From: Sphingomonas bacterium
GTDB taxonomy: Bacteria > Pseudomonadota > Alphaproteobacteria > Sphingomonadales > Sphingomonadaceae
Reading direction: 5' to 3'
Length of the DNA stretch: 34,332 bases
Assembly: GCF_028292925.1 (NCBI RefSeq)
Contig: NZ_JAQGLK010000011.1
Location: 1-34,332 of the forward strand
Made by a program: the position numbers and the translations under genes. The notes beneath the pieces were generated by a model. That model had not been told where the DNA came from. It did no database searches and saw only the letters and a program-made list of their open reading frames with translations. Positions 2,594 to 12,028 of the stretch are shown one piece after another (the stretch's first letter is position 1; each line of letters begins with the position of its first letter).

Positions 2594-3147
2594 CGCTCGC
2601 TGGGCTGGCGCTCGCTGGTGGCGCGCACGCGCTCGAGAAGCAGCTGTGCCTTGCGGGTCACCTCGTCGAGAACGGTGCCGAACTGCTCGAGCGTCTCGTC
2701 GGAGAGGTCGCCGACGACGAAGCGGTTGCGGTCGATCGCGAGCGCCACCATCCGATCATGTACCACCTGCCCCTCGTCGCTGAGGGTGATCATGATCGCC
2801 GGCCCGCCCGGCCGGCGGCGGCTGATCAGCAATCCCTGCTGCGCCATCGCCTTGACCGCGCGGCTGAGCTGCCCCCGATCGAGGCCGCAAAGCTCCGCCA
2901 GATCGTTCAGCGACAGCGGTGCGTAGCCACCCACCTGCGCCATGATGCGCCATTCGATGCGGGAGAGGCCGAGTTCGCGCTGGTTGGCGATCGTGCCGCT
3001 GCGACGAAGCAGTTCCAGGAGCCCGACGATGCGGATCGTGAGCAGTTCGCGCATCGTGCCGCTGCGCGCGGCAAGCGCGTTGTGCTGGGCAAGCGAGATA
3101 TCCTTCGGCGGGCGCAAACGGCCGTCTCCATCGATAATGAAGAGCAA
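2572..3147 (-). CDS. MarR-family transcriptional regulator
   Basis: This 191-residue protein has a winged helix-turn-helix DNA-binding domain of the MarR family. The visible core is LGLSRIEWRIMAQV, then LSLNDLAELCGLDRGQLSRAVKAM as the recognition helices, then a wing region (ISRRRPGG) and the ITLSDEG strand, roughly residues 55-130. Flanking helices should make the dimer. The start used is TTG at 3147; it keeps an N-terminal stretch (DISLAQHN) that I judge likely to be coding, but the first ATG is at residue 32, so the start is uncertain. The C-terminus holds a short duplication (SERQ twice) from a 15-bp tandem repeat at 2590-2618. Two palindromes sit immediately upstream of the start, suggesting autoregulation. 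The convergent TonB receptor is a possible target. Confidence 0.85.
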   Translation of the reverse strand: MLFIIDGDGRLRPPKDISLAQHNALAARSGTMRELLTIRIVGLLELLRRSGTIANQRELGLSRIEWRIMAQVGGYAPLSLNDLAELCGLDRGQLSRAVKAMAQQGLLISRRRPGGPAIMITLSDEGQVVHDRMVALAIDRNRFVVGDLSDETLEQFGTVLDEVTRKAQLLLERVRATSERQPSERQTSGPG

Positions 3148-3149
3148 TC

Positions 3150-3182
3150 TGATACAGGAACGTATCAGTTGATCGCGATCAA
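3150..3182. promoter_or_regulatory. Two adjacent palindromes at the marR start (putative operators)
   Basis: TGATAC-N6-GTATCA at 3150-3167 is a perfect 18-bp dyad of the size MarR dimers bind. It is followed at once by the 14-bp palindrome TTGATCGCGATCAA at 3169-3182. Both lie just upstream of the TTG start of the marR-like gene, where a bound repressor would block its transcription. Autoregulation is inferred. Confidence 0.5.
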
Positions 3183-3633
3183 CCGGGCAAGGTTTCGAAG
3201 CGCGCTGCCGTAACCGCCCGCGCCACGCTTTTCCACTGTCTCCGCCGGGCCGCAGGGAGCGGGCGTACGTTCCTGGCGGGTAGGGGAAGGAGGCAAGCCT
3301 GATCGATCACCGGCCAGCATCGTGGCCGCTGCCGCACCGGGAATCCGCCGTGAAATTGGGGCTTCGAACTCGCTTGCGAACTGTTCGTCGACGATGCCGT
3401 GGTACGGCGGCCTCTGGCCACCCCGCCATCCCGCCGTCGGCACGTTGAGGCACTCGGCCTCCCTCCGCGGGGGATGGCGACGGCTCGCCGAGACCGGCAG
3501 CGTCCCGTCTGCATCGGGGTGGCTGGCGTGCCGGCAGGGCGGCCCCTGCAGGCGCAACGGGTTCCTGCCGGTCGATCCAGGCAGGTTTGCCGACCTTCAG
3601 TCTATTCCGGTTGGCCGGCCCGCCTCGGCGATC
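3183..3633. other. Intergenic stretch without recognisable gene
   Basis: About 450 bases. Open frames exist on both strands, but their translations are Arg/Pro/Ala-rich, match no family I know and lack ribosome-binding sites. I see no repeat, RNA gene or mobile element here. A 12-bp sequence, CGATCAACCGGG at 3176-3187, also occurs at 2569-2580, so direct repeats bracket the marR gene. Confidence 0.4.
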
Positions 3634-3831
3634 TCAGAGCGGCCTTCCCATCGGGCGTGGAACGGCATCCCGCTCCGCCTTCAGGCCGGCTGGCCCGCCC
3701 GCACGCCCGCGAACGTTCGTGGACATCAGCCCAAACCATGCCTCCTCGCGGCGCGCGTGGGCCAAGGCGGCGTTGGCGCGACGCCACATGTCGTCCGTGT
3801 ACGATGCGCCGCTCCGGATGTCTTTCGGCAT
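3634..3831 (-). CDS. Small protein of unknown function (65 aa)
   Basis: I do not recognise this protein. It starts MPKDIRSGASYTDDMWRRAN, has a probable amphipathic helix around residues 14-31 (WRRANAALAHARREE), no signal peptide and no membrane segment, and is basic at the C-terminus. Three things favour a real gene. A GGGGGAG ribosome-binding site lies about 10 nt before the ATG. A sigma70-like promoter lies about 75 nt upstream on the same strand. Third codon positions are strongly GC-biased, like the neighbouring genes. It is the only plausible gene between marR and the repeat-protein gene. It could be an independent small cytoplasmic protein or a remnant of a longer gene. Confidence 0.42.
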   Translation of the reverse strand: MPKDIRSGASYTDDMWRRANAALAHARREEAWFGLMSTNVRGRAGGPAGLKAERDAVPRPMGRPL

Positions 3832-3906
3832 CGATCAACACTCCCCCAAGAGGTCCCGGCCGTCTTCCGCCCGAAGGCGACGCAGCCGTCATCCTGTATG
3901 GCCCGG

Positions 3907-3934
3907 AGTATAATCCTGTTGACCGTCGAGTAAA
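3907..3934 (-). promoter_or_regulatory. Sigma70-like promoter for the small minus-strand gene
   Basis: On the minus strand TTTACT (3934-3929) and TATACT (3912-3907) are separated by 16 bp, a reasonable -35/-10 pair in an unusually AT-rich patch. Transcription would begin about 70 nt before the ATG at 3831. The plus strand here also contains TATAAT (3909-3914), but no good -35 precedes it. Confidence 0.4.
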
Positions 3935-4194
3935 CCGAAATTGATTCGCCGGGTTCACCCGAATAGGAGCAAATCCCGGATGCTTCCCCTTGGTAACGCG
4001 GGGACTCCTGTTCCGGATCGAGACAATATCCTATTACTCAGATCAACCGCGCGGAGCGAATGGACGTCTGGCGCGGTCGTCCACTGCCGCGTCGGCCGCC
4101 GAAATCGAGGGTTAAAGCGGCGCCCCAATTCGTTTCGGGCGCAAACCCCCATATGGCGATACGTTTCAGTCCAGATGGAACGCGTTTCCTCCCA

Positions 4195-4216
4195 ATCATG
4201 GTTAGTAAGCCATTAT
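4195..4216. promoter_or_regulatory. Inverted repeat upstream of the repeat-protein gene
   Basis: ATCATGG-N8-CCATTAT is a 22-bp dyad with one mismatch per arm pair. It lies about 110 nt before the ATG of the secreted repeat protein in an AT-rich patch that probably contains its promoter. The size suits a dimeric regulator such as the PAS/LuxR-type protein encoded at 9543-10598. I could not pick out a convincing -35/-10 pair. Confidence 0.3.
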
Positions 4217-4328
4217 CGTTAGGCGGATGACACCGTTCAGGCATCGGCGACCCGGTGCTGACGAGGCCATGCGAGTTCGACGTTGGGTCGCAAGTCGTTG
4301 GCCTTCAACCGAAAACAGGACGACCTCG

Positions 4329-5912
4329 ATGAAAGCGACTTTCCTGGTATCATCGTCCCTCGCGGCGCTGCTGATGGCGGCTCCGGCCCATGCCCAGCTC
4401 GCCGATCCGGCCGGCGGGGCGGCGGCTGACAACGGCTCGTCGGCGACGGACAACTCCGCGTCGAACTCCGACAATTCCATGACCGACAACACGAACAACT
4501 CGACGACGGACAACACCGCGGCGAACTCCGACAACTCGATGACCGACAACACGGCCGCCAACTCCGACAATTCGGCAACCGACAACACGAACAACTCGGT
4601 GACCGACAACTCGGATGGCAGCTCGGCATCGGGTGCCCAGATCTCCGCGAACAACGGCGCCGGGGTGACGTCCGACAATTCGGACGACTCCGACAACAGC
4701 AGCGCATCCGGCGCGCAGATCTCGGCGAACAACGGCGCCGGGGTGACCTCCGACAACTCCACCAATGACGATTCGGACAATAGCAGCGCATCCGGCGCAC
4801 AGATTTCGGCGAACAACGGCGCCGGAGTGACCTCGGACAATTCGGACGACTCCGACAACAGCAGCGCGTCCGGTGCGCAGATTTCGGCCAACAACGGTGC
4901 CGGCGTGACGTCCGACAATTCCGACGACTCGGACAACAGCAGCGCCTCGGGTGCCCAGATCGCGTCGAACAACGGCGCTACGGTCAACTCGGACAACTCC
5001 GACAACTCGGATAACTCGACCACCGACCATGCTGACCGCAGCAGCGCATCCGGTGCGCAGATTGCGGCGAACAACGGCGGTTCGGTTACGTCGGACAATA
5101 GCAGCGCTTCCGGTGCGCAGATCTCTGCGAACAACGGCAGCACGGTGAATTCCGACAATTCGGACAATTCCGACAACTCGGACAACAGCGCCTCGGGTGC
5201 CCAGATTGCGGCGAACAACGGATCCACCGTTAACTCCGACAATTCGGACAGCAGCGCGTCCGGTGCCCAGATCGCCGCGAACAACGGCGCGACGGTGAAT
5301 TCGGACAACTCCGACAACTCCGACAACAGCAGTGTCTCGGGTGCGCAGATTGCCGCGAACAACGGCGGCACTGTGAACTCGGATAACTCCGACAACTCGG
5401 ATAACTCGGACGACTCCGACAACAGCAGCGCCTCGGGTGCTCAGATCGCGGCGAACAACGGCGCCACGGTCAACTCCGACAACTCGGATAACTCCGACAA
5501 TTCGGATAACAGCGACAATTCGGATAACAGCAATCGCAGCTCGACGGCCACCAACAACGGCACGGGTGCTGTGGCCAATGGCGGCGACGCCAGCTTCACC
5601 GACTCGTCGATGTCCTACTCGGGCTCGGCATCGGCAAGCGATGGGGCCGCGGCCACGAACAACCAGTTCGGCGCGGGATCGGTCGTCTCGTCTTCGACGC
5701 TGGCAAGCTACGTCACGGGCATCACCGTCCGCTACAACACGCCGGACGGCACCGCCGGCGGCGCGCCGAACAACATGCTGACCACGGGTGACGGGGCGTT
5801 CTCGAACTTCGCCGGCATCCAGGCGCTGAACATGAACACGGGGGTTGCGGCATCGCAGAACGCCTCCGTCAGCATCAGTGCCTCGGTCGGTACGCTCTCG
5901 CTCGGCCAATAA
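4329..5912 (+). CDS. Secreted Ser/Asn/Asp repeat protein, putative amyloid-type fibre subunit
   Basis: A 527-residue exported protein and the probable main structural product of this cluster. Residues 1-22 are a clear Sec signal peptide ending AHA. Residues 24-97 are low complexity, made of (S/T)DN units. Residues 98-402 hold eleven repeats with a core SASGAQIxANNGxxVxSDN and an acidic SDN-rich linker of variable length. Residues 403-527 are a Gly/Ser/Asn-rich C-terminal domain ending in a motif shared with the next gene. There is no cysteine. A strand-NNG turn-strand unit repeated in tandem suggests a beta-solenoid or functional amyloid. The many aspartates might bind calcium. ATG 4329 is chosen because it begins the signal peptide; the frame is open further upstream. 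The Fap-like neighbours (C39 peptidase, coiled-coil barrel) support secretion to the cell surface. The repeats are not the Fap or curlin consensus. An adhesin or S-layer role is also possible. Confidence 0.8.
   Translation: MKATFLVSSSLAALLMAAPAHAQLADPAGGAAADNGSSATDNSASNSDNSMTDNTNNSTTDNTAANSDNSMTDNTAANSDNSATDNTNNSVTDNSDGSSASGAQISANNGAGVTSDNSDDSDNSSASGAQISANNGAGVTSDNSTNDDSDNSSASGAQISANNGAGVTSDNSDDSDNSSASGAQISANNGAGVTSDNSDDSDNSSASGAQIASNNGATVNSDNSDNSDNSTTDHADRSSASGAQIAANNGGSVTSDNSSASGAQISANNGSTVNSDNSDNSDNSDNSASGAQIAANNGSTVNSDNSDSSASGAQIAANNGATVNSDNSDNSDNSSVSGAQIAANNGGTVNSDNSDNSDNSDDSDNSSASGAQIAANNGATVNSDNSDNSDNSDNSDNSDNSNRSSTATNNGTGAVANGGDASFTDSSMSYSGSASASDGAAATNNQFGAGSVVSSSTLASYVTGITVRYNTPDGTAGGAPNNMLTTGDGAFSNFAGIQALNMNTGVAASQNASVSISASVGTLSLGQ
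4620..5534 (+). repeat. Eleven in-frame coding repeats (20-37 codons each)
   Basis: Each unit contains the core SGAQI(A/S)xNNGxxVxSDN, followed by zero to several SDN/SDD tripeptides. Unit lengths as I count them are 26, 28, 26, 26, 34, 20, 29, 22, 25, 32 and 37 residues. The core is nearly invariant and the linkers vary. Units 1-4 have GAGV, whereas later units have (A/S/G)(T/S)V, so the array has at least two subfamilies. Synonymous codons differ from unit to unit. Confidence 0.92.
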
Positions 5913-5922
5913 GTCTGAACTG

Positions 5923-5953
5923 GGTGCGGGCCGGCGACATGCCGGCCCGCACC
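5923..5953 (+). other. Very stable intercistronic stem-loop
   Basis: GGTGCGGGCCGGC pairs perfectly with GCCGGCCCGCACC across the 5-nt loop GACAT, 10 nt after the repeat-protein stop and 28 nt before the next ATG. No T-run follows. It could be a partial terminator or a 3' stabiliser that keeps repeat-protein mRNA more abundant than the downstream secretion genes. Confidence 0.75.
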
Positions 5954-5981
5954 TCGGTAACATCGGCGAAGGTATCCGGTT

Positions 5982-6341
5982 ATGAAACTTTGGAAAGGAT
6001 CCGCCGCGGTCCTGCTGGCCCTTGCAGCCCCGGCTTGGGCGGATGCGGGGCAGGGGGAGCCGGCTGCGGCCCCCGCGCTGGTTTTCGGGGACGCCGCATC
6101 GATCGCAAGCGACGAGCTCGCTGCGATTACCGGCCAGGCCGATATCAACATGCAAGTCCGGGCGCAGAATACCAGCACGGTCTCGAACAACTCGGTCAGC
6201 GGAAATTCAGTGACGGGGACGATCGGTTTTGATAGTTCGGCGTTTCAGAACTTGAGTGGCCTGTCGGTCGTCAGCGCGAACACCGGCAACAACGTCTCGA
6301 TCAATTCGTCTCTGAACGTCAACGTCGCCTTGAATCCGTAG
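5982..6341 (+). CDS. Small secreted protein sharing the repeat protein's C-terminal motif
   Basis: A 119-residue exported protein with a signal peptide at residues 1-22 (cleavage near AWADA) and no cysteine. The mature part is Asn/Ser/Val-rich with alternating polar and hydrophobic residues (VSNNSVSGNSVTG, NVSINSSLNVNV), suggesting beta structure. Its last 30 or so residues align without gaps to the end of the repeat protein: FxN(F/L)(A/S)G(I/L), then NTG, then SxN(A/S)S. By analogy with FapB and CsgB it could be a minor subunit or nucleator. It could also be a chaperone or a periplasmic partner that competes for the same binding site. The gene follows the stem-loop and has a GAAGG-type ribosome-binding site about 10 nt from the ATG. 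It probably shares the transcript with its neighbours. Confidence 0.72.
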   Translation: MKLWKGSAAVLLALAAPAWADAGQGEPAAAPALVFGDAASIASDELAAITGQADINMQVRAQNTSTVSNNSVSGNSVTGTIGFDSSAFQNLSGLSVVSANTGNNVSINSSLNVNVALNP

Positions 6342-6403
6342 TCCGAGGGGCATGTCTCATTCACGCCGTTGCATCCAGGAAGCTGATCTTTAGCGGAGTC
6401 GCG

Positions 6404-7069
6404 ATGTTGCTTTCCGGCTGCACGGCCATGTCGCCCCAGGAAGCCGGCAACCGCGTGGATTTTGGCGGCGCTCTCGAATTCGGGCTGCCGGTGACGAGCA
6501 TGATCGGCCGCCGCTTCGAAACGGTGATCCGGCAGCAATATGACTTCAGCTGCGGATCGGCAGCGCTCGCCACTCTGCTACGGTATCATTACGGTGAGCC
6601 GCAGACCGAGCAGACCGCTTTCGTCGGCATGTTCCGCGAAGGCGATCAGGAGCAGATTCGCCGGCTCGGTTTCTCGCTGCTGGATATGAAGCGATATCTG
6701 GCCGGTCGCAGTGTCGCAGCGGACGGGTATCGGGTGACGATCGATCAGATCGCCGCCGCCCGCATTCCCGGAATCGCCCTGGTCGACTTCAACGGATACA
6801 AGCATTTCGTCGTCGTGAAGGGTGTCGAGGGGGGCAGCGTCCTCCTGGGCGACCCTTCGCTGGGCCTTCGGCGGCAACCGATCCGTGCGTTCCTGAAGCA
6901 ATGGAACGGTATCTTCTTCGTGTTGAACGAGAGGAACGCCATCGGCCAGATGCACTTCAATCAGGTTGCCGATCTCGACCGCGCACCGGCGGGGCGGATG
7001 TTCGCGCCGTCCGATCCCCTTTCCACGGCCGAGCTCGCGCTGACGCGGCCGCTGTTCAACGAGTTTTGA
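6404..7069 (+). CDS. C39-family cysteine peptidase (FapD-like)
   Basis: A papain-like C39 peptidase domain. Counting from ATG 6404, the catalytic Cys is residue 50 (QQYDFSCGSAALATLL, with the oxyanion Gln just before), His 134 (GYKHFVVV) and Asp 150 (LLGDPSLG), so the triad is intact. Related domains process peptides exported by ABC transporters; FapD is the stand-alone periplasmic relative in Pseudomonas Fap operons. The start is ambiguous. ATG 6404 has GGAG 5 nt upstream but begins MLLSGC, half of a lipoprotein signal. The same frame reads RKLIFSGVA directly before it, giving a full lipobox peptide if translation began at ATT 6359, which has GAGGGG 8 nt upstream. It is probably a periplasmic lipoprotein. 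The next gene starts 2 nt after its stop, implying coupling. Likely targets are the repeat protein or the small secreted protein. Confidence 0.85.
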   Translation: MLLSGCTAMSPQEAGNRVDFGGALEFGLPVTSMIGRRFETVIRQQYDFSCGSAALATLLRYHYGEPQTEQTAFVGMFREGDQEQIRRLGFSLLDMKRYLAGRSVAADGYRVTIDQIAAARIPGIALVDFNGYKHFVVVKGVEGGSVLLGDPSLGLRRQPIRAFLKQWNGIFFVLNERNAIGQMHFNQVADLDRAPAGRMFAPSDPLSTAELALTRPLFNEF

Positions 7070-7071
7070 GC

Positions 7072-7908
7072 ATGATGACGAAGCCAGTCGACCACCGGGC
7101 GGGATTGCAAGTGCGGATCAGGCCCCGCCGGATCGGCACCGTGGCTATGGTCGCGATGATGATGGGCGTTTCGGTGGGGGCCTGCCCCCCCGCAGCGGCC
7201 GCGTCGCTGCCGCCGGGCGAGGCAATTCTGGTGATCGCGCGCAGGCCCCATGTCTTTGGCGCGCAGGTGCCGAACGAAGTCCTGGAAACACTGCGGGGCG
7301 GCGTCCAACTGCCCAACGGCATGAACATATCGATAGGGATCGATATCCAGACGCGCGTCGATGGCCTGCTCGTCCTGCACACGCTCTATGCGACGGACGG
7401 GCCCGACGCCGGGATCCGTGTGTTCACCGATGGAGCCGCTCCGTCGCCTGCGCCGACGGGCGCGATCGTCGTCCGGACGGAAGGCAGCGAGGGTGCCGCC
7501 GAAGTGACGGTCAGCCGCGCGCCCACCGGCACCACGATCGACATCTCGACCCCCAGCGCGCCAGCGAAGGTCAACATCGTCAGTGGACTGCCCTCGACAT
7601 GGGAGATGGCGGCCGGCCAGACCCAGGTGCCTGTCACCGAAAACGGCCCCGCCGTGGTCACGCCGGCCGGCGCTATCCGCCTTGCGACCGATGAGCGCGG
7701 CGGCGTCGTGACGCTCGACGCGCCGGCGCTCCAACTGCGGCACATCGTGGGCGAAGCGGCGGGGATCATCGTGGCGAACGCCGGGAACGACCGAACCATC
7801 GATACGATCAGTTCGGTCAATCTGGATCTGCAGGGATTTTCCCCCGCACTGATGGCGGGTTTGTCGATGGGCGATCAACTTGCCCTTGCCGTGGCGAGCG
7901 CGCGCTGA
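7072..7908 (+). CDS. Exported protein of unknown family in the amyloid-like cluster
   Basis: A 278-residue protein starting 2 nt after the peptidase gene. A basic N-terminus (about residues 1-21) precedes a hydrophobic segment (TVAMVAMMMGVSVGA) and then ACPPAAAA, consistent with a Sec signal, or possibly a lipoprotein with Cys in VGAC. Two stretches look conserved: near residues 70-100 ETLRGG, LPNGM and SIGIDIQTRVDG, and at the C-terminus NDRTIDTISSVNLDLQGF. Between them lies a Thr/Pro/Ala-rich region. I do not recognise a catalytic motif. Its position between the C39 peptidase and the barrel is where Fap operons place FapE, so it could be a minor fibre component, a periplasmic chaperone or a guide to the pore. 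That assignment is by context only. Confidence 0.7.
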   Translation: MMTKPVDHRAGLQVRIRPRRIGTVAMVAMMMGVSVGACPPAAAASLPPGEAILVIARRPHVFGAQVPNEVLETLRGGVQLPNGMNISIGIDIQTRVDGLLVLHTLYATDGPDAGIRVFTDGAAPSPAPTGAIVVRTEGSEGAAEVTVSRAPTGTTIDISTPSAPAKVNIVSGLPSTWEMAAGQTQVPVTENGPAVVTPAGAIRLATDERGGVVTLDAPALQLRHIVGEAAGIIVANAGNDRTIDTISSVNLDLQGFSPALMAGLSMGDQLALAVASAR

Positions 7909-7944
7909 ACCCTGCGGACAGCGCCTTTAATTCAGGAAACGAAC

Positions 7945-9255
7945 ATGCGGCATGTGAGCACTTTGGCGGCGTGCGGTCTCCTCGCGATAGGATCGTCCTT
8001 GCCGGCGCGTGCGGCCACCGGCGATGATCTCGAAACGCTGCGGGCCGAGTTGATCGCCCAGAAAAGCGCGCTGGACGAGCAGCAGAAGCAGCTCAACGCG
8101 CAGCGCGTCCGGCTCCAGGCGATCGAGGACAGCCTGCTGTCCCGCATGCGGGGGACGGGCGCCGCACAGGTGGCGGGATCGGATACCGTTCCCCTGCCGC
8201 CTTCGCCGCCGCCCGCGCCTCCGGCCTCCGCACAGGCGGCCGCCAACGCCCCGGCCGGCAGCGTCCAGACAGTCGGCGAAGCCCCGACCGAGCAACGCCA
8301 GGTCCAGGTTGCCGTGCTGGCCGAACAAGGCGGCGTGATCACCCGCGCCGGCAGGCTGACGCTGGAGCCGGTGCTGGAATATGCCCGCGCGGACCGCAAC
8401 CGCTTCGTGTTCCGCGGCGTCCAGGTGATCAACGCGCTCGCGATCGGGGTGTTCGACATCAACGAGGCCCGGCAGGACGTTCTCACCGCCGCCGGTGTGG
8501 CGCGCCTGGGTGTGACCAACCGGTTCGAGATCAACGCCCGCGTTCCATACGTCTATCGCTCGGACAAGGCGGTCGTGACGCCGATCGCCAACCCGACGCC
8601 GAGCAACACGCAGGATGCATCGGTGCGGGATAGCGGAATCGGCGATATCGATTTCGGTGCCCGATACCAGTTTACCGACGGCCGAAACGGCGCACCTTAT
8701 CTGATCGGCGGTATCCAGGCGATCGCCCCGACGGGGACCAGCCCGTTCGCGGTCGAGCGCAACACGCTGGGCATCGCGAGGGAGGCATCGACCGGCGCCG
8801 GATTCTGGGGCATCACCCCGAACCTGACCGCTATCCTGCCGACCGACCCCGCGGTCCTGTTCGCTACGGTGGGGTACACGGTCAACATCGCGCGCAACAT
8901 CGATCGTATGATCGGCACGACCCTGATCGAGCGGGTAAAGCCGGGCGATACGCCGTCGGCAAGCGTGGGCATTGCCCTGTCGCTCAATCCGCGGACGTCG
9001 CTCAGCCTGGGCTACGGGCATAGCTGGTCGATGGGGACGAAGATGCGGTTCCGTACCACGGACGCGAACGGAGTGCTGGGCGACGAGGCGACTTCGAAAA
9101 CGCGCGATCTGCAACTCGGCCGGCTCCTGTTCGGCGTGAGCTATCGTACGAGCCCGCGTACGACGATAAACTGGAACCTCGAGATGGGGGCGACGGAGGA
9201 TGCGACCGATCTGCGCACCACCTTGCGGATACCGCTGACATTCGAGGTGTTCTGA
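7945..9255 (+). CDS. Outer-membrane beta-barrel with N-terminal coiled coil (FapF-like)
   Basis: A 436-residue exported protein. A signal peptide (about residues 1-24) precedes a heptad-rich helix of about 40 residues (LETLRAELIAQKSALDEQQK onwards) and a Pro/Ala linker (about 75-110). The rest is a beta-barrel of amphipathic strands ending in an aromatic residue (TFEVF), like the family annotated as transporter or phenol MetA degradation. FapF of Pseudomonas has this same plan: a periplasmic trimeric coiled coil, a helical gate and a barrel that secretes fibre subunits. The length is also close. The ATG has AGGAAA 6 nt upstream, and the gene is last in the run that starts at 4329. I infer that it is the secretion pore for the repeat protein. 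A general porin is the main alternative. Confidence 0.82.
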   Translation: MRHVSTLAACGLLAIGSSLPARAATGDDLETLRAELIAQKSALDEQQKQLNAQRVRLQAIEDSLLSRMRGTGAAQVAGSDTVPLPPSPPPAPPASAQAAANAPAGSVQTVGEAPTEQRQVQVAVLAEQGGVITRAGRLTLEPVLEYARADRNRFVFRGVQVINALAIGVFDINEARQDVLTAAGVARLGVTNRFEINARVPYVYRSDKAVVTPIANPTPSNTQDASVRDSGIGDIDFGARYQFTDGRNGAPYLIGGIQAIAPTGTSPFAVERNTLGIAREASTGAGFWGITPNLTAILPTDPAVLFATVGYTVNIARNIDRMIGTTLIERVKPGDTPSASVGIALSLNPRTSLSLGYGHSWSMGTKMRFRTTDANGVLGDEATSKTRDLQLGRLLFGVSYRTSPRTTINWNLEMGATEDATDLRTTLRIPLTFEVF

Positions 9256-9274
9256 GGCCCGCCACTCCTACTGG

Positions 9275-9364
9275 GTCGCCAGGGGACGGGGGCGTAAGCC
9301 CGAACGCACGGATGGGCCAAGTCCATCGACGAGAAACGCGGTGCGGCCAAGCGCCCCTGGCGAC
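9275..9364. repeat. Long-range inverted repeat after the barrel gene
   Basis: An 11-bp perfect pair (GTCGCCAGGGG at 9275-9285 and its complement at 9354-9364) is separated by 68 nt. It lies just downstream of the barrel gene stop and could form the base of a structured 3' end. A second imperfect dyad (CGGCAT at 9429-9434, ATGCCG at 9447-9452) lies nearer the regulator gene. Nothing else was seen in 9256-9542. Confidence 0.35.
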
Positions 9365-9542
9365 AGGGGAGGGTGCCCCGTCGACCGCGGAACCGACCTG
9401 AAATCCCTGACTATGCACTGACCATGCACGGCATGCGTGTTGCGCGATGCCGTCCTGCCTCCTAGTCTGCTTAAGGCACGGACAAAGATGAAGAATGTTC
9501 GACTCGCCCTTGTGATTATTGGGCCGCCGGGGGGGATGGACG

Positions 9543-10598
9543 ATGCTTTCGGCCGAGAAGGACGAGCTTCCGCTAGTCATGCGCGAAATCGCCGATGCGA
9601 TGCGCGCGCATGCGGCCATCCTGACCGTACATCCTGACGATGGCGAAGCGGAAGTTCTGCATGCAGAGGAAATTGCCGGCGTGGACACGGAGCGTGTTCG
9701 GGCGCTGTTTACCAATGGTACGTTCGGCGATAACCGCCGGCGCGAAGTGCATGCATGGATCGAGTGCGATCTGGGCCCGGACATCCGCAATGTACTGCTG
9801 ATACCCGTCGACAAGATTCCCGGCCAAAGCAGGCTTATAATTGCAACCTTCTTCGGTTTACTCGATGCCGAGGAAAGGCGGGGGGCGGAACAAGTATATC
9901 TCAACCGCCGGCCATTCGCGACCGGCTATTTCCGGCTGTGGCAGCTGGATCGCGTTCGCTCGCGCCGTGTCGATGCGCTGGAAACCGCGCTCGACCTGAA
10001 CGACATGGGCGTGTTCCTGCTCGATCGATCAGGCGATCTGCTGTTCGCCAACGAGACAGGCCGGGCGATCCTGGACAAGGGCGAGGGTTTGCGGCGTCAC
10101 CGCAATTCCTTCCGCGCGACCGATCTGTCGGACAGCCTGCGCCTTCAGGTCGTGCTCGATCACGTGATGAATTTCACGGCCACCCAGCCTGTCCGGCGGG
10201 ATCGCGCGCCGTCCACGCCGCTGGTTGCCCTGCAACGCGGCGACGGTGCCCCGCTGATGCTTTCCGTGATGCCGACCAACAGGCCGCCGACGGAGCCCAG
10301 CGATGCCGCCGCGATCGTGTTCGTGCTGGATCCCGCGATCGACATCGATCGGCTGATCCTGCCCCTATGTACCTTGTATCGGCTGACAGCGGTCGAGTCC
10401 GAACTGTTGAAGTTGATGGTCAAGGGTACGACGATCACGGTCGCCTCGGAGGTGCTGCGCCTGAAGGAGCAGACGGCGCGGGGCTATCTCAAGCAGATCT
10501 TCGTCAAGACCGGCACCAACCGGCAGAGCGAACTGATGCGATTGATGCTGTCGAGCATGATCCGCACCTCGAGCAGGGTCTTCACCGAGGCTTTCTAG
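9543..10598 (+). CDS. PAS/LuxR-type helix-turn-helix regulator
   Basis: A 351-residue transcription factor. The N-terminal half has no motif I can name. A PAS-like segment around residues 155-230 (LNDMGVFLLDRSGDLLFANETG) probably senses a signal. The C-terminus (about 275-345) is a LuxR/GerE-type DNA-binding domain: LTAVESELLKLMVKG, then TVASEVLRLKEQTARGYLKQ, then IFVKTGTNRQSEL. There is no receiver domain, so it is not a classical response regulator. ATG 9543 is chosen because a G-rich ribosome-binding site lies just before it. The gene sits directly after the Fap-like cluster on the same strand with 287 nt between, and is a good candidate for its regulator. That is inferred from position only. 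Confidence 0.83.
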   Translation: MLSAEKDELPLVMREIADAMRAHAAILTVHPDDGEAEVLHAEEIAGVDTERVRALFTNGTFGDNRRREVHAWIECDLGPDIRNVLLIPVDKIPGQSRLIIATFFGLLDAEERRGAEQVYLNRRPFATGYFRLWQLDRVRSRRVDALETALDLNDMGVFLLDRSGDLLFANETGRAILDKGEGLRRHRNSFRATDLSDSLRLQVVLDHVMNFTATQPVRRDRAPSTPLVALQRGDGAPLMLSVMPTNRPPTEPSDAAAIVFVLDPAIDIDRLILPLCTLYRLTAVESELLKLMVKGTTITVASEVLRLKEQTARGYLKQIFVKTGTNRQSELMRLMLSSMIRTSSRVFTEAF

Positions 10599-10639
10599 GC
10601 GGGACAGCCTTTCGTGGCGTGCATGCGAGTGGCAGTCGA

Positions 10640-11860
10640 TCAGGCGTTGGCGGCAGGGGCGCCGCGCATCCGGATGGCAAGGCCGAGCTGCCGGGTATCG
10701 GCGGTGCCATAAAGTTCCCGCGGCGTCGGCGGCGGTGGCGTGACCAGCCGGATCTCGACGGGGGCGTCGCTCTCCAGTGTCGCCGTCGCCCGCAGGCTGT
10801 TGCCGCTGACCTTGATCGCAACGGCCTGGCCGCCGATCAGCAACCGGGACCGGGACAGGAAGTCCGGCGCGATCTCCATGATCGAGGTCAGGCGCAACTG
10901 GACATCGCAGTTGCCCATGGGTGGGGTCCACTGCCAGACGATCTCGCTTCTCGCCGTCCAGCGGAAGCTCGAATCCTCGATCTCGTGCCAATCGGCCAGG
11001 TCGCATGTCAGCGTGGCGGCTGATGACGCTTCATCGGGGGCCGACAGGAGCAGGTCCAGGGATGGACGCCCGATCCGGCCCAGCAAGGCGGCGGAGGCGG
11101 CCGAAGGCGCGCTGGCAAAGCCGTGAAGATAGCCCGAAGGGTAGGGCACGAGGCCGGCCGCCTTGCCGAGCGGCACCAGGGAAGCCACCGACTGCAGCGA
11201 GACATGTCCGTTGCGGGGCGCCACGTACCACCAGTTGGTGCGCACGGTTTCGATATCATCCGGCTGCACCCCGGTTCCGACCAGAATGCAGCCGCCCGGT
11301 TGCAGAAAGCTTGCCATGTCGCGCAGGGTGCCGACCGGATCCGGCGAATGCTCGATCACCTCCATGCAGGTGATGACATCGAACAGGCGTTCGGGACGAC
11401 GGGGGCTCGAAAAGGGATCGTAGCATTCCGCCTCGAAACCGGCATTGCGAAGCACTCCGGCCAGTACCCCCGCGCCGCCGCCGTAATCGAGTACCGACAG
11501 GCCGGGATACGGCGCCAGCAGCTCGCCGAAAAACGCACCGTCACGGCGTGGCCGTGCGTCGGCATAGTCGCCGTCTACCTTGATATAATCTTCATTGTAT
11601 ATGAACCGGCTAAAATCCGCCGCCGTCCAGTCATCGACGAAGTCGGTGAACAGAAACTCACAATCCATGCATCTGTAATAATATACAGGAATGCCTGCCT
11701 GGCCGAACATATAGGGCTGATCGGTCGAGCAGATCTTCTGGAAGTCGACCACGTCGAAAGCCGGGGCGATGCCGCTGCAAACCTTGCACTTGCGGTGAAC
11801 CTTCTCCTGGGATCCCAGGGGAGACAGCGCAGCCAGCTTCGTGAGCAGTGTCTCGTCCAT
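10640..11860 (-). CDS. Class I SAM-dependent methyltransferase with zinc ribbon
   Basis: A 406-residue protein. The N-terminus has a zinc-ribbon pair (CKVCSG near residue 26 and CMDCEF near 65). A Rossmann-type methyltransferase fold follows: VLDYGGGAGVLAGVL is SAM motif I, DVITCMEVIEHSPDP the post-motif acidic segment, and LQPGGCILVGTG a later strand. The C-terminal third (from about 250) is a beta-rich region with no name I know. This architecture is common in enzymes that methylate sugars or surface glycans, but the acceptor cannot be read. ATG 11860 is preferred over GTG 11863 because GGAG lies 5 nt before it. The gene is convergent with the LuxR-type regulator and lies 168 nt downstream of the DUF72 gene on the same strand. 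Confidence 0.85.
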   Translation of the reverse strand: MDETLLTKLAALSPLGSQEKVHRKCKVCSGIAPAFDVVDFQKICSTDQPYMFGQAGIPVYYYRCMDCEFLFTDFVDDWTAADFSRFIYNEDYIKVDGDYADARPRRDGAFFGELLAPYPGLSVLDYGGGAGVLAGVLRNAGFEAECYDPFSSPRRPERLFDVITCMEVIEHSPDPVGTLRDMASFLQPGGCILVGTGVQPDDIETVRTNWWYVAPRNGHVSLQSVASLVPLGKAAGLVPYPSGYLHGFASAPSAASAALLGRIGRPSLDLLLSAPDEASSAATLTCDLADWHEIEDSSFRWTARSEIVWQWTPPMGNCDVQLRLTSIMEIAPDFLSRSRLLIGGQAVAIKVSGNSLRATATLESDAPVEIRLVTPPPPTPRELYGTADTRQLGLAIRMRGAPAANA

Positions 11861-12028
11861 CACAACTCCGTGCGCAGGCTGCGTGTCCCCTGTCGGGGTA
11901 GGGGAGGGCCTGGAACGGGAGTATGGCCGGGCTTATCGGCGTTAGCAAACCGTTCGACAGCATCCGGCCGGTAGCCGCCGTGGTTGCCGGCGCCTGCATT
12001 CGGTATCCCGCGGTGCCGCCCCGCTCGC

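Follow-up and report, generated by a model that had tools for sequence, protein, structure and literature searches.

In a stretch of 34,332 nt from a Sphingomonas bacterium (NZ_JAQGLK010000011.1; hereafter "the window", at its full length), the open reading frames (ORFs) at positions 4329-10598 probably encode a Fap-like export system for extracellular fibres, which would form a clade separate from canonical Fap and in which a C39 peptidase would cut the leaders of its partner proteins. The homology of its barrel, peptidase, and FapE-like protein to Fap components, its gene order, its catalytic residues, and a leader together with the conservation of that leader are well supported, and our analysis suggests that what is novel is not so much the repeat as a widespread Fap-like clade, in which explicit double-glycine leaders hint at the site at which FapD acts. 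All six ORFs listed in an original prediction made from the sequence alone (a repeat protein, a small secreted protein, a C39 peptidase, an exported protein, a barrel, and a regulator) are present on the plus strand, are separated by gaps of 69, 62, 2, 36, and 284 bases in that order, and follow the fapB/C-D-E-F gene order. The features are as follows:

4329-5912, plus strand: Asn/Asp/Ser-rich secreted repeat protein of 527 residues, the presumed fibre subunit (leader pattern in 0/85 repeat ORFs of the family)
4629-5483, plus strand: 11 SGAQIxxNNGxxV units with SDN linkers (unit count; strand-turn-strand only in the top, low-confidence model)
5778-5909, plus strand: C-terminal motif of the repeat protein, common to the small protein (alignment of 22 sequences; hhalign)
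5982-6341, plus strand: small secreted protein of 119 residues in a FapB-like position (a member of its family precedes the peptidase in 88/89 loci)
6102-6137, plus strand: residues 41-52 of the small protein, its putative leader IASDELAAITGQ (motif alignment)
6404-7069, plus strand, 6404 being a candidate start: C39 peptidase, FapD homologue (Cys50 at 6551-6553, His134 at 6803-6805, Asp150 at 6851-6853)
7072-7908, plus strand: FapE-like exported protein of 278 residues, with a beta-rich domain in its model (profile comparison, AlphaFold2 model)
7267-7302, plus strand: residues 66-77 of the FapE-like protein, its leader VPNEVLETLRGG, with a predicted cut after Gly77 (motif alignment)
7945-9255, plus strand: FapF-like outer-membrane protein with an N-terminal coiled-coil-like stretch, a linker, and a barrel (residues 128-433; FapF homology)
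9540-10598 (or start at 9519), plus strand: PAS/LuxR-like regulator (weak Pfam matches, BLAST relatives)

The idea that this is a Fap-related secretion machine is borne out by the homology of the barrel and the peptidase to FapF and FapD and by a gene order that is kept in relatives. Over residues 128-433, the barrel matches the FapF structures 5o65/5o67 (phmmer E about 2e-33), and it is recognized by the NCBIfam FapF model with an E-value of 5.6e-47, its 160.5 bits lying below the equivalog cut-off of 700. The peptidase is likewise recognized by the FapD model (E 8.9e-45; 152.7 bits, below the equivalog cut-off of 330) and matches C39 structures such as 6mpz (E 4.7e-7). The full Cys-His-Asp triad that had been read in its sequence is indeed there and is accompanied by a glutamine, Gln44, Cys50, His134, and Asp150 being invariant in 100/100 aligned peptidase homologues. 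Translation from the ATG at 6404 would put no more than MLLSGC ahead of the peptidase body; the in-frame codons at 6359-6404 upstream of it encode ...SRKLIFSGVAMLLSGC, which resembles a lipoprotein signal and contains no ATG, GTG, or TTG, and a lipobox-like motif precedes the catalytic core in 17/89 relatives. As to the next ORF, described at first as an exported unknown protein, its export stands but it is no longer unknown, since it is FapE-related and leader-bearing: a profile comparison of 44 non-canonical FapE-like proteins with 13 canonical FapE rows yields 95.6% (E 1.1e-8), the match spanning 37 columns that correspond to the leader and the next strand. The window protein alone does not match the NCBIfam FapE model and is not among the 10/65 aligned family members that this model matches directly. 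A Pfam AraC_binding_2 hit on it (17 bits vs 27) was taken as chance.

The conservation of this module was assessed by searching named genomes with an alignment of the peptidase and taking the best 80 of at least 577 confirmed relatives: by record title, 32 belong to Sphingomonadales, and the rest to other alpha-, beta-, gamma-, and deltaproteobacteria, plus a few contigs of metagenome-assembled genomes (MAGs) labelled otherwise. Within these best 80, the closest named peptidases are those of Sphingomonas, with 68% identity to L025. Family profiles were trained on ten loci and then iterated, and counts refer to 89 of 91 loci, L015 (truncated, without peptidase) and L074 (same record as L018) being set aside. 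Directly upstream of the peptidase lies a small-family ORF in 88/89 loci, directly downstream a FapE-like ORF in 85/89, and an upstream Asn-rich secreted ORF is found in 79/89, so that the expected conservation of gene order is recovered; barrels are present in 85/91 ORF sets, often on the opposite strand. Alignments were built on chosen subsets (65/81 FapE-like proteins in A3, 44/81 in A7, 69/88 small proteins in A4, and 22/85 repeat ORFs in A5), the 81 usable FapE-like proteins being the 85 less L058, L061, L079, and L102; mostly, long, low-complexity, and near-duplicate sequences were omitted, and A7 also omits the GK types and L024. Near copies remain in the set (L059/L060, L075/L084, L082/L086). 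The Anaerolineae label of L086 was not relied on, as L086 and the alphaproteobacterial MAG L082 have nearly the same peptidase; the MAG labels of L071 and L087 were accepted as given. In L143, the trio of small, peptidase, and FapE-like ORFs occurs as a tandem duplicate (2924-4506 and 5788-7370) with the same ORF lengths and start sequences.

The element on which the peptidase would act is best seen in the FapE-like protein. Its leader, VPNEVLETLRGG, presents a hydrophobic residue at -12, Leu at -7, Gly at -2, and Gly at -1 (a position for Gly/Ala/Ser in C39 substrates), and as a sequence it fits the double-glycine consensus of such substrates, given in PMC6959990 for peptidase-containing ATP-binding cassette (ABC) transporters as L(-12)xxxE(-8)L(-7)xxxxGG with a helix at -10 to -4 (mutational data on such leaders appear in PMC6363468). 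A signal-like start is detected by a crude rule in 70/85 FapE-like ORFs, and the leader sits behind it. The pattern [LIVMF]x4[LIVM]x4GG is found in 73/85 FapE-like ORFs vs a mean of 10.5 and a maximum of 22 in 500 shuffles, and in 4.9% of 3768 other ORFs. A sharper pattern, [LIVMA]x4[LM]x3RG[GRK], is found in 76/85 vs 40/4319 other ORFs (17/1258 of those with signal-like starts) and 0/85 repeat ORFs, with a mean of 0.55 and a maximum of 4/85 in 1000 rounds of shuffling; both denominators of 85 include L061, L079, and L102, which look like other proteins. Its nine misses are five TGK leaders, one HGK leader (L024, canonical), and three probable other ORFs. Across 65 aligned FapE-like proteins, whose mean column identity is 16%, Gly(-2) is the sole invariant column, and at least 90% conservation is reached by Leu(-7), Arg(-3), and Gly(-1), as well as by another Gly and an Asn. 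The AlphaFold2 model (mean predicted local distance difference test [pLDDT] 73) places a helix at residues 68-75 (-10 to -3), followed by Gly76-Gly77 and a beta-rich domain; Foldseek returned no convincing fold for this model (best E 0.012, probability 0.28).

The small protein carries a putative leader of a looser form, IASDELAAITGQ, with Gln at -1; among 69 aligned small proteins, Gly(-2) is kept in 67/69 and Leu/Met(-7) in 68/69, the -1 position being occupied by G25, R24, K7, Q6, and M5. That this protein is a relative of the repeat protein holds only towards the C-terminus (hhalign probability 86, E 5.7e-7), where there is a match to the C-terminus of the FapE-like protein as well (53%, E 2.1e-5).

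Leaders of this shape extend to canonical Fap, where they end in GR or GK: all of 13/13 FapE rows, drawn from 12 stretches, keep Asp(-10), Glu(-8), and Gly(-2), L128 being left out (no FapE match), and the NCBIfam FapE model recognizes 5/5 canonical FapE tested, one over cut-off. In addition, 5/6 Fil-type stretches hold a leader ORF, e.g. LDDSALADVTGQ, directly after the signal peptide and with GQ in place of GG, as found with a pattern that was drawn up after viewing L157 and applied without a control. In L157, to which the family assignment is confined, two proteins match FilA and DUF6160, one with leader MTDTAMSNATGQ and the other with MDDQSLANSVAQ, without the Gly, and the neighbours match FilB, FilC, and FilD. 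In L157 (11512-13691) and L158-L161, FilA/DUF6160-type and neighbouring ORFs carry a leader of this shape that ends TGQ, a resemblance which suggests that FilB may cut behind TGQ in FilA/DUF6160-type proteins.

With regard to canonical Fap, we place the window system beside it and not inside it because of the split in the peptidase tree: among 100 peptidases (LG+G4, no bootstrap, unrooted), 12 canonical FapD rows make up one side, with an approximate likelihood-ratio support (SH-aLRT) of 100, and the window lies on the other. By this separate peptidase side, by scores under the cut-offs, and by the lack of a Fap repeat, the cluster is, at the level of sequence, not Fap in the strict sense. Barrel matches occur in 13/59 related genomes (the window's own counted, two weak) and, at E 1e-30, in 42/297 Sphingomonadales genomes (canonical Fap and the window's own counted); the window's own genome has one C39 match and one barrel match. 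At the level of the phylum, the FapF model finds 20/299 genomes at E 1e-20, five over cut-off, and the wider barrel profile also finds 20/299. Sorted by score and by reading of the stretches, 13 genomes are canonical and 8 are of the window type besides the window's own, G231 being counted among the latter without its stretch being read; G089 and G144 carry both kinds. Fap repeats were detected by pattern in 11/13 canonical stretches, though not in G343 and G294, which are canonical by FapF score. No peptidase was seen with the second barrel of G351 (L147). Canonical fap-type operons with Fap repeats also occur in the window's own family (L024, 7793-12638, from G015; L136, 3669-8500, from G145); a 2013 survey, in the excerpt available, names only Beta-, Gamma-, and Deltaproteobacteria for Fap.

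The repeat protein itself holds 11 SGAQIxxNNG copies at a spacing of 20-34 residues and 33 SDN, with 60 Asp, 0 Glu, 1 Lys, 3 Arg, and 0 Cys (isoelectric point about 4); its arrays are visible as tandem repeats in the DNA too. It has no family match in Pfam or NCBIfam, neither to a FapB/FapC model nor to the curlin repeat, and, having no Cys, it lacks a C-terminal CxxC as in FapC, which agrees with the early view that the substrate is unlike Fap or curlin repeats. That the SGAQIxANNG repeat marks an undescribed class, as had been proposed, is not supported, since SGAQ[IVF] units are found in only 6/85 repeat ORFs, those of the window and its nearest kin (L025-L029, of which L029 is the environmental S. 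phyllosphaerae FA2): judging from these sequences, the repeat is local, and the conserved unit is the module around the peptidase. Among relatives, the N/S/D/T-rich arm is variable and can be rich in DDNSDDDG, and the recurring element is the C-terminal motif, in which G496, N501, N503, G505, Q510, and N511 are invariant in 22 sequences and whose pattern is found in 54/85 repeat ORFs. Against canonical Fap repeats, this motif scores 15.0 vs a maximum of 13.3 in 100 column shuffles (probability 2.5%). A reading of the motif as a Fap repeat was considered and is not claimed because the signal is weak for the repeat protein and not above shuffles for the small one. In the top model, each repeat unit forms a strand-turn-strand at pLDDT about 70-80; Foldseek found no convincing fold for it (best E 2.9).

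On this basis, we propose that the proteins would leave the cytoplasm via Sec, after which the peptidase, in the periplasm, would bind the FapE-like protein, and probably the small subunit as well, by its short helical leader and would cleave after G-G (or G-Q/R/K/M) in the manner of bacteriocin C39 domains. The released beta-rich parts might then engage the FapF-like barrel, which would in turn release the disordered, acidic repeat protein. Outside the cell, the repeat protein and the small subunit may co-assemble via their related C-terminal motif, with nucleation by the small one, by analogy with FapB. Cleavage and its role as a gate, co-assembly, and the fibre with its amyloid structure are predictions.

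Several observations weigh against this scheme. Canonical FapE (GR/GK) and most small proteins (G in 25/69) have a residue other than Gly at -1, vs GG/GA/GS at known C39 sites. Co-variation of this residue with peptidase columns was tried and dropped, as it mirrored nothing but the division of the rows into canonical and others. The patterns were picked after the family had been viewed, and the members are related, so that the counts are not independent. Among small proteins, the sharper pattern is found in only 21/88, the loose pattern being found in 78/88 but also in 653/4319 other ORFs and 15/85 repeat ORFs. The leader helix is modelled with moderate confidence only (pLDDT block means 67-68), the repeat protein is poorly modelled (mean pLDDT 53 for the top model and at most 43 for the other four), and the small-protein C-terminus scores 7.5 against Fap repeats, below the shuffle maximum of 11.4. 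Lastly, the published gap in FapE peptides (first ~70 residues) is compatible with a cut near residue 40 without placing it.

The variable -1 residue is also what would be expected if the leader were a docking element only and the peptidase a targeting factor or chaperone that holds the FapE-like protein and the small subunit, the essential cut being made elsewhere, for instance in the linker of the FapF-like barrel. PMC5557850 and PMC5135000 lend this something, as they propose FapF cleavage, note a double-glycine motif in FapF, and mention inactive C39-like domains. We nevertheless hold it unlikely: Gln, Cys, His, and Asp are catalytic and kept in 100/100 peptidases, whereas the two glycines of the barrel linker are kept in only 49 and 57 of 85 barrels, of which no more than 11 have a leader-like GG at any point. 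Leaders are favoured as the main cut because of this very contrast, and the barrel linker was rejected as the chief target. A somewhat better chance, although still a low one, is given to the repeat protein making no amyloid fibre but serving at the surface or in the matrix as an acidic, disordered protein, perhaps one that binds calcium, and leaving by a Fap-type exporter; its 60 Asp and 0 Glu, its SDN runs, the DDNSDDDG-rich arms of relatives, and the low-confidence repeat model would all suit such a protein, but it shares its C-terminal motif with the small subunit, its export would be through a FapF-type pore, and the motif does exceed the 100 column shuffles against the Fap repeat, if weakly. 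That the cluster is just a fast-diverged canonical fap operon with no separate identity seems the least probable of all: the equal gene order, the homologous FapD, FapE, and FapF, and the unrooted state of the peptidase tree would allow it, yet the 12 canonical FapD share one side of a branch with an SH-aLRT of 100, G089 and G144 hold both kinds of system, and the repeat protein has neither Fap repeat nor Cys.

The export system that we propose can be compared with four known ones. With Pseudomonas fapABCDEF, it shares a C39 peptidase, a FapE-type protein, and a FapF-type barrel in equal order, as well as a homologous leader on FapE; it differs from it by lacking Fap repeats and Cys in the repeat protein, by a leader in GG vs GR/GK, and by a separate peptidase clade, and no FapA-like gene was found among the window proteins scanned. 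The Fil system of NCBIfam, a putative pilus (FilA, the C39 peptidase FilB, FilC, and FilD), also pairs an exported C39 peptidase with a FapF-related barrel and has the FilA leader already mentioned, but the window proteins reach only 109 bits vs a cut-off of 475 for FilB and 77.4 vs 630 for FilC, and the Pfam scan found no FadL-type FilD among the cluster proteins. Substrates of C39 ABC transporters (bacteriocins and other ribosomally synthesized and post-translationally modified peptides) have in common with the window leader the hydrophobic -12, Leu -7, Gly -2, Gly -1, and preceding helix, whereas the window leader follows a Sec-type signal and its peptidase is a separate, exported protein without an ABC transporter. 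Curli have major and minor secreted subunits and a dedicated outer-membrane pore, CsgG; the window system is alike in its major/minor subunits and own pore, but has no curlin-repeat match and a pore of the FapF type. It is conceivable, though a little less likely than not, that Fap, Fil, and the window clade share one pathway, in which after Sec export an exported C39 peptidase would remove a bacteriocin-style leader (from FapE, FilA, or the small subunit) and thereby license the release of fibre subunits by a FapF-type barrel; the Asn/Asp-rich protein of the window would be a non-Fap fibre on that pathway.

Around this core, the prediction of a PAS/LuxR-type regulator is upheld in part: BLAST relatives are found in 32/91 ORF sets (the window counted), all of them Sphingomonadales by record title or kinship, but the domain matches stay below the Pfam cut-offs (GerE E 0.011, PAS_8 E 0.019). 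In four Sphingomonadales loci, the barrel adjoins by eye a sigma-54-activator-like regulator, not a LuxR-type one (L017, 5900-7414; L019, 6239-7783; L020, 6340-7815; L021, 8452-10044). Promoter- and terminator-like sites at the cluster are no commoner than in shuffles, and no Rfam match lies within 3000-11000. The cluster is flanked by a large plus-strand ORF at 13-2529, a TonB-dependent receptor by eye, and by a minus-strand S-adenosylmethionine-dependent methyltransferase at 10640-11863, identified by Pfam.

Secretion of FapC in Pseudomonas depends on the catalytic Cys of FapD (PMC5557850), and the target of FapD has been left undecided in print. PMC5557850 and PMC6173800 report FapE without its N-terminal peptides and regard it as a likely FapD target because of GG and GA motifs, the same authors seeing no canonical C39 sequence and leaving the target open: in 2017 it was described as unclear, and in 2018 as yet to be determined, with FapE under suspicion. 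According to a 2025 review (PMC12822426), FapF and the N-terminus of FapE are the presumed substrates of FapD. FapE as FapD target is therefore a published suspicion, and what is new here is the leader, its position, and its spread; in the accessible parts of the open-access literature, we found no naming of this FapE-type leader. Our comparison offers a residue-level candidate site in FapE and related subunits and reduces the FapD question to one direct experiment. It also suggests how the conserved N-terminal part of FilA/DUF6160 proteins might be read. Overall, the module of peptidase, leader, and barrel appears to be wider than Fap and to export quite different, fast-changing repeat proteins.

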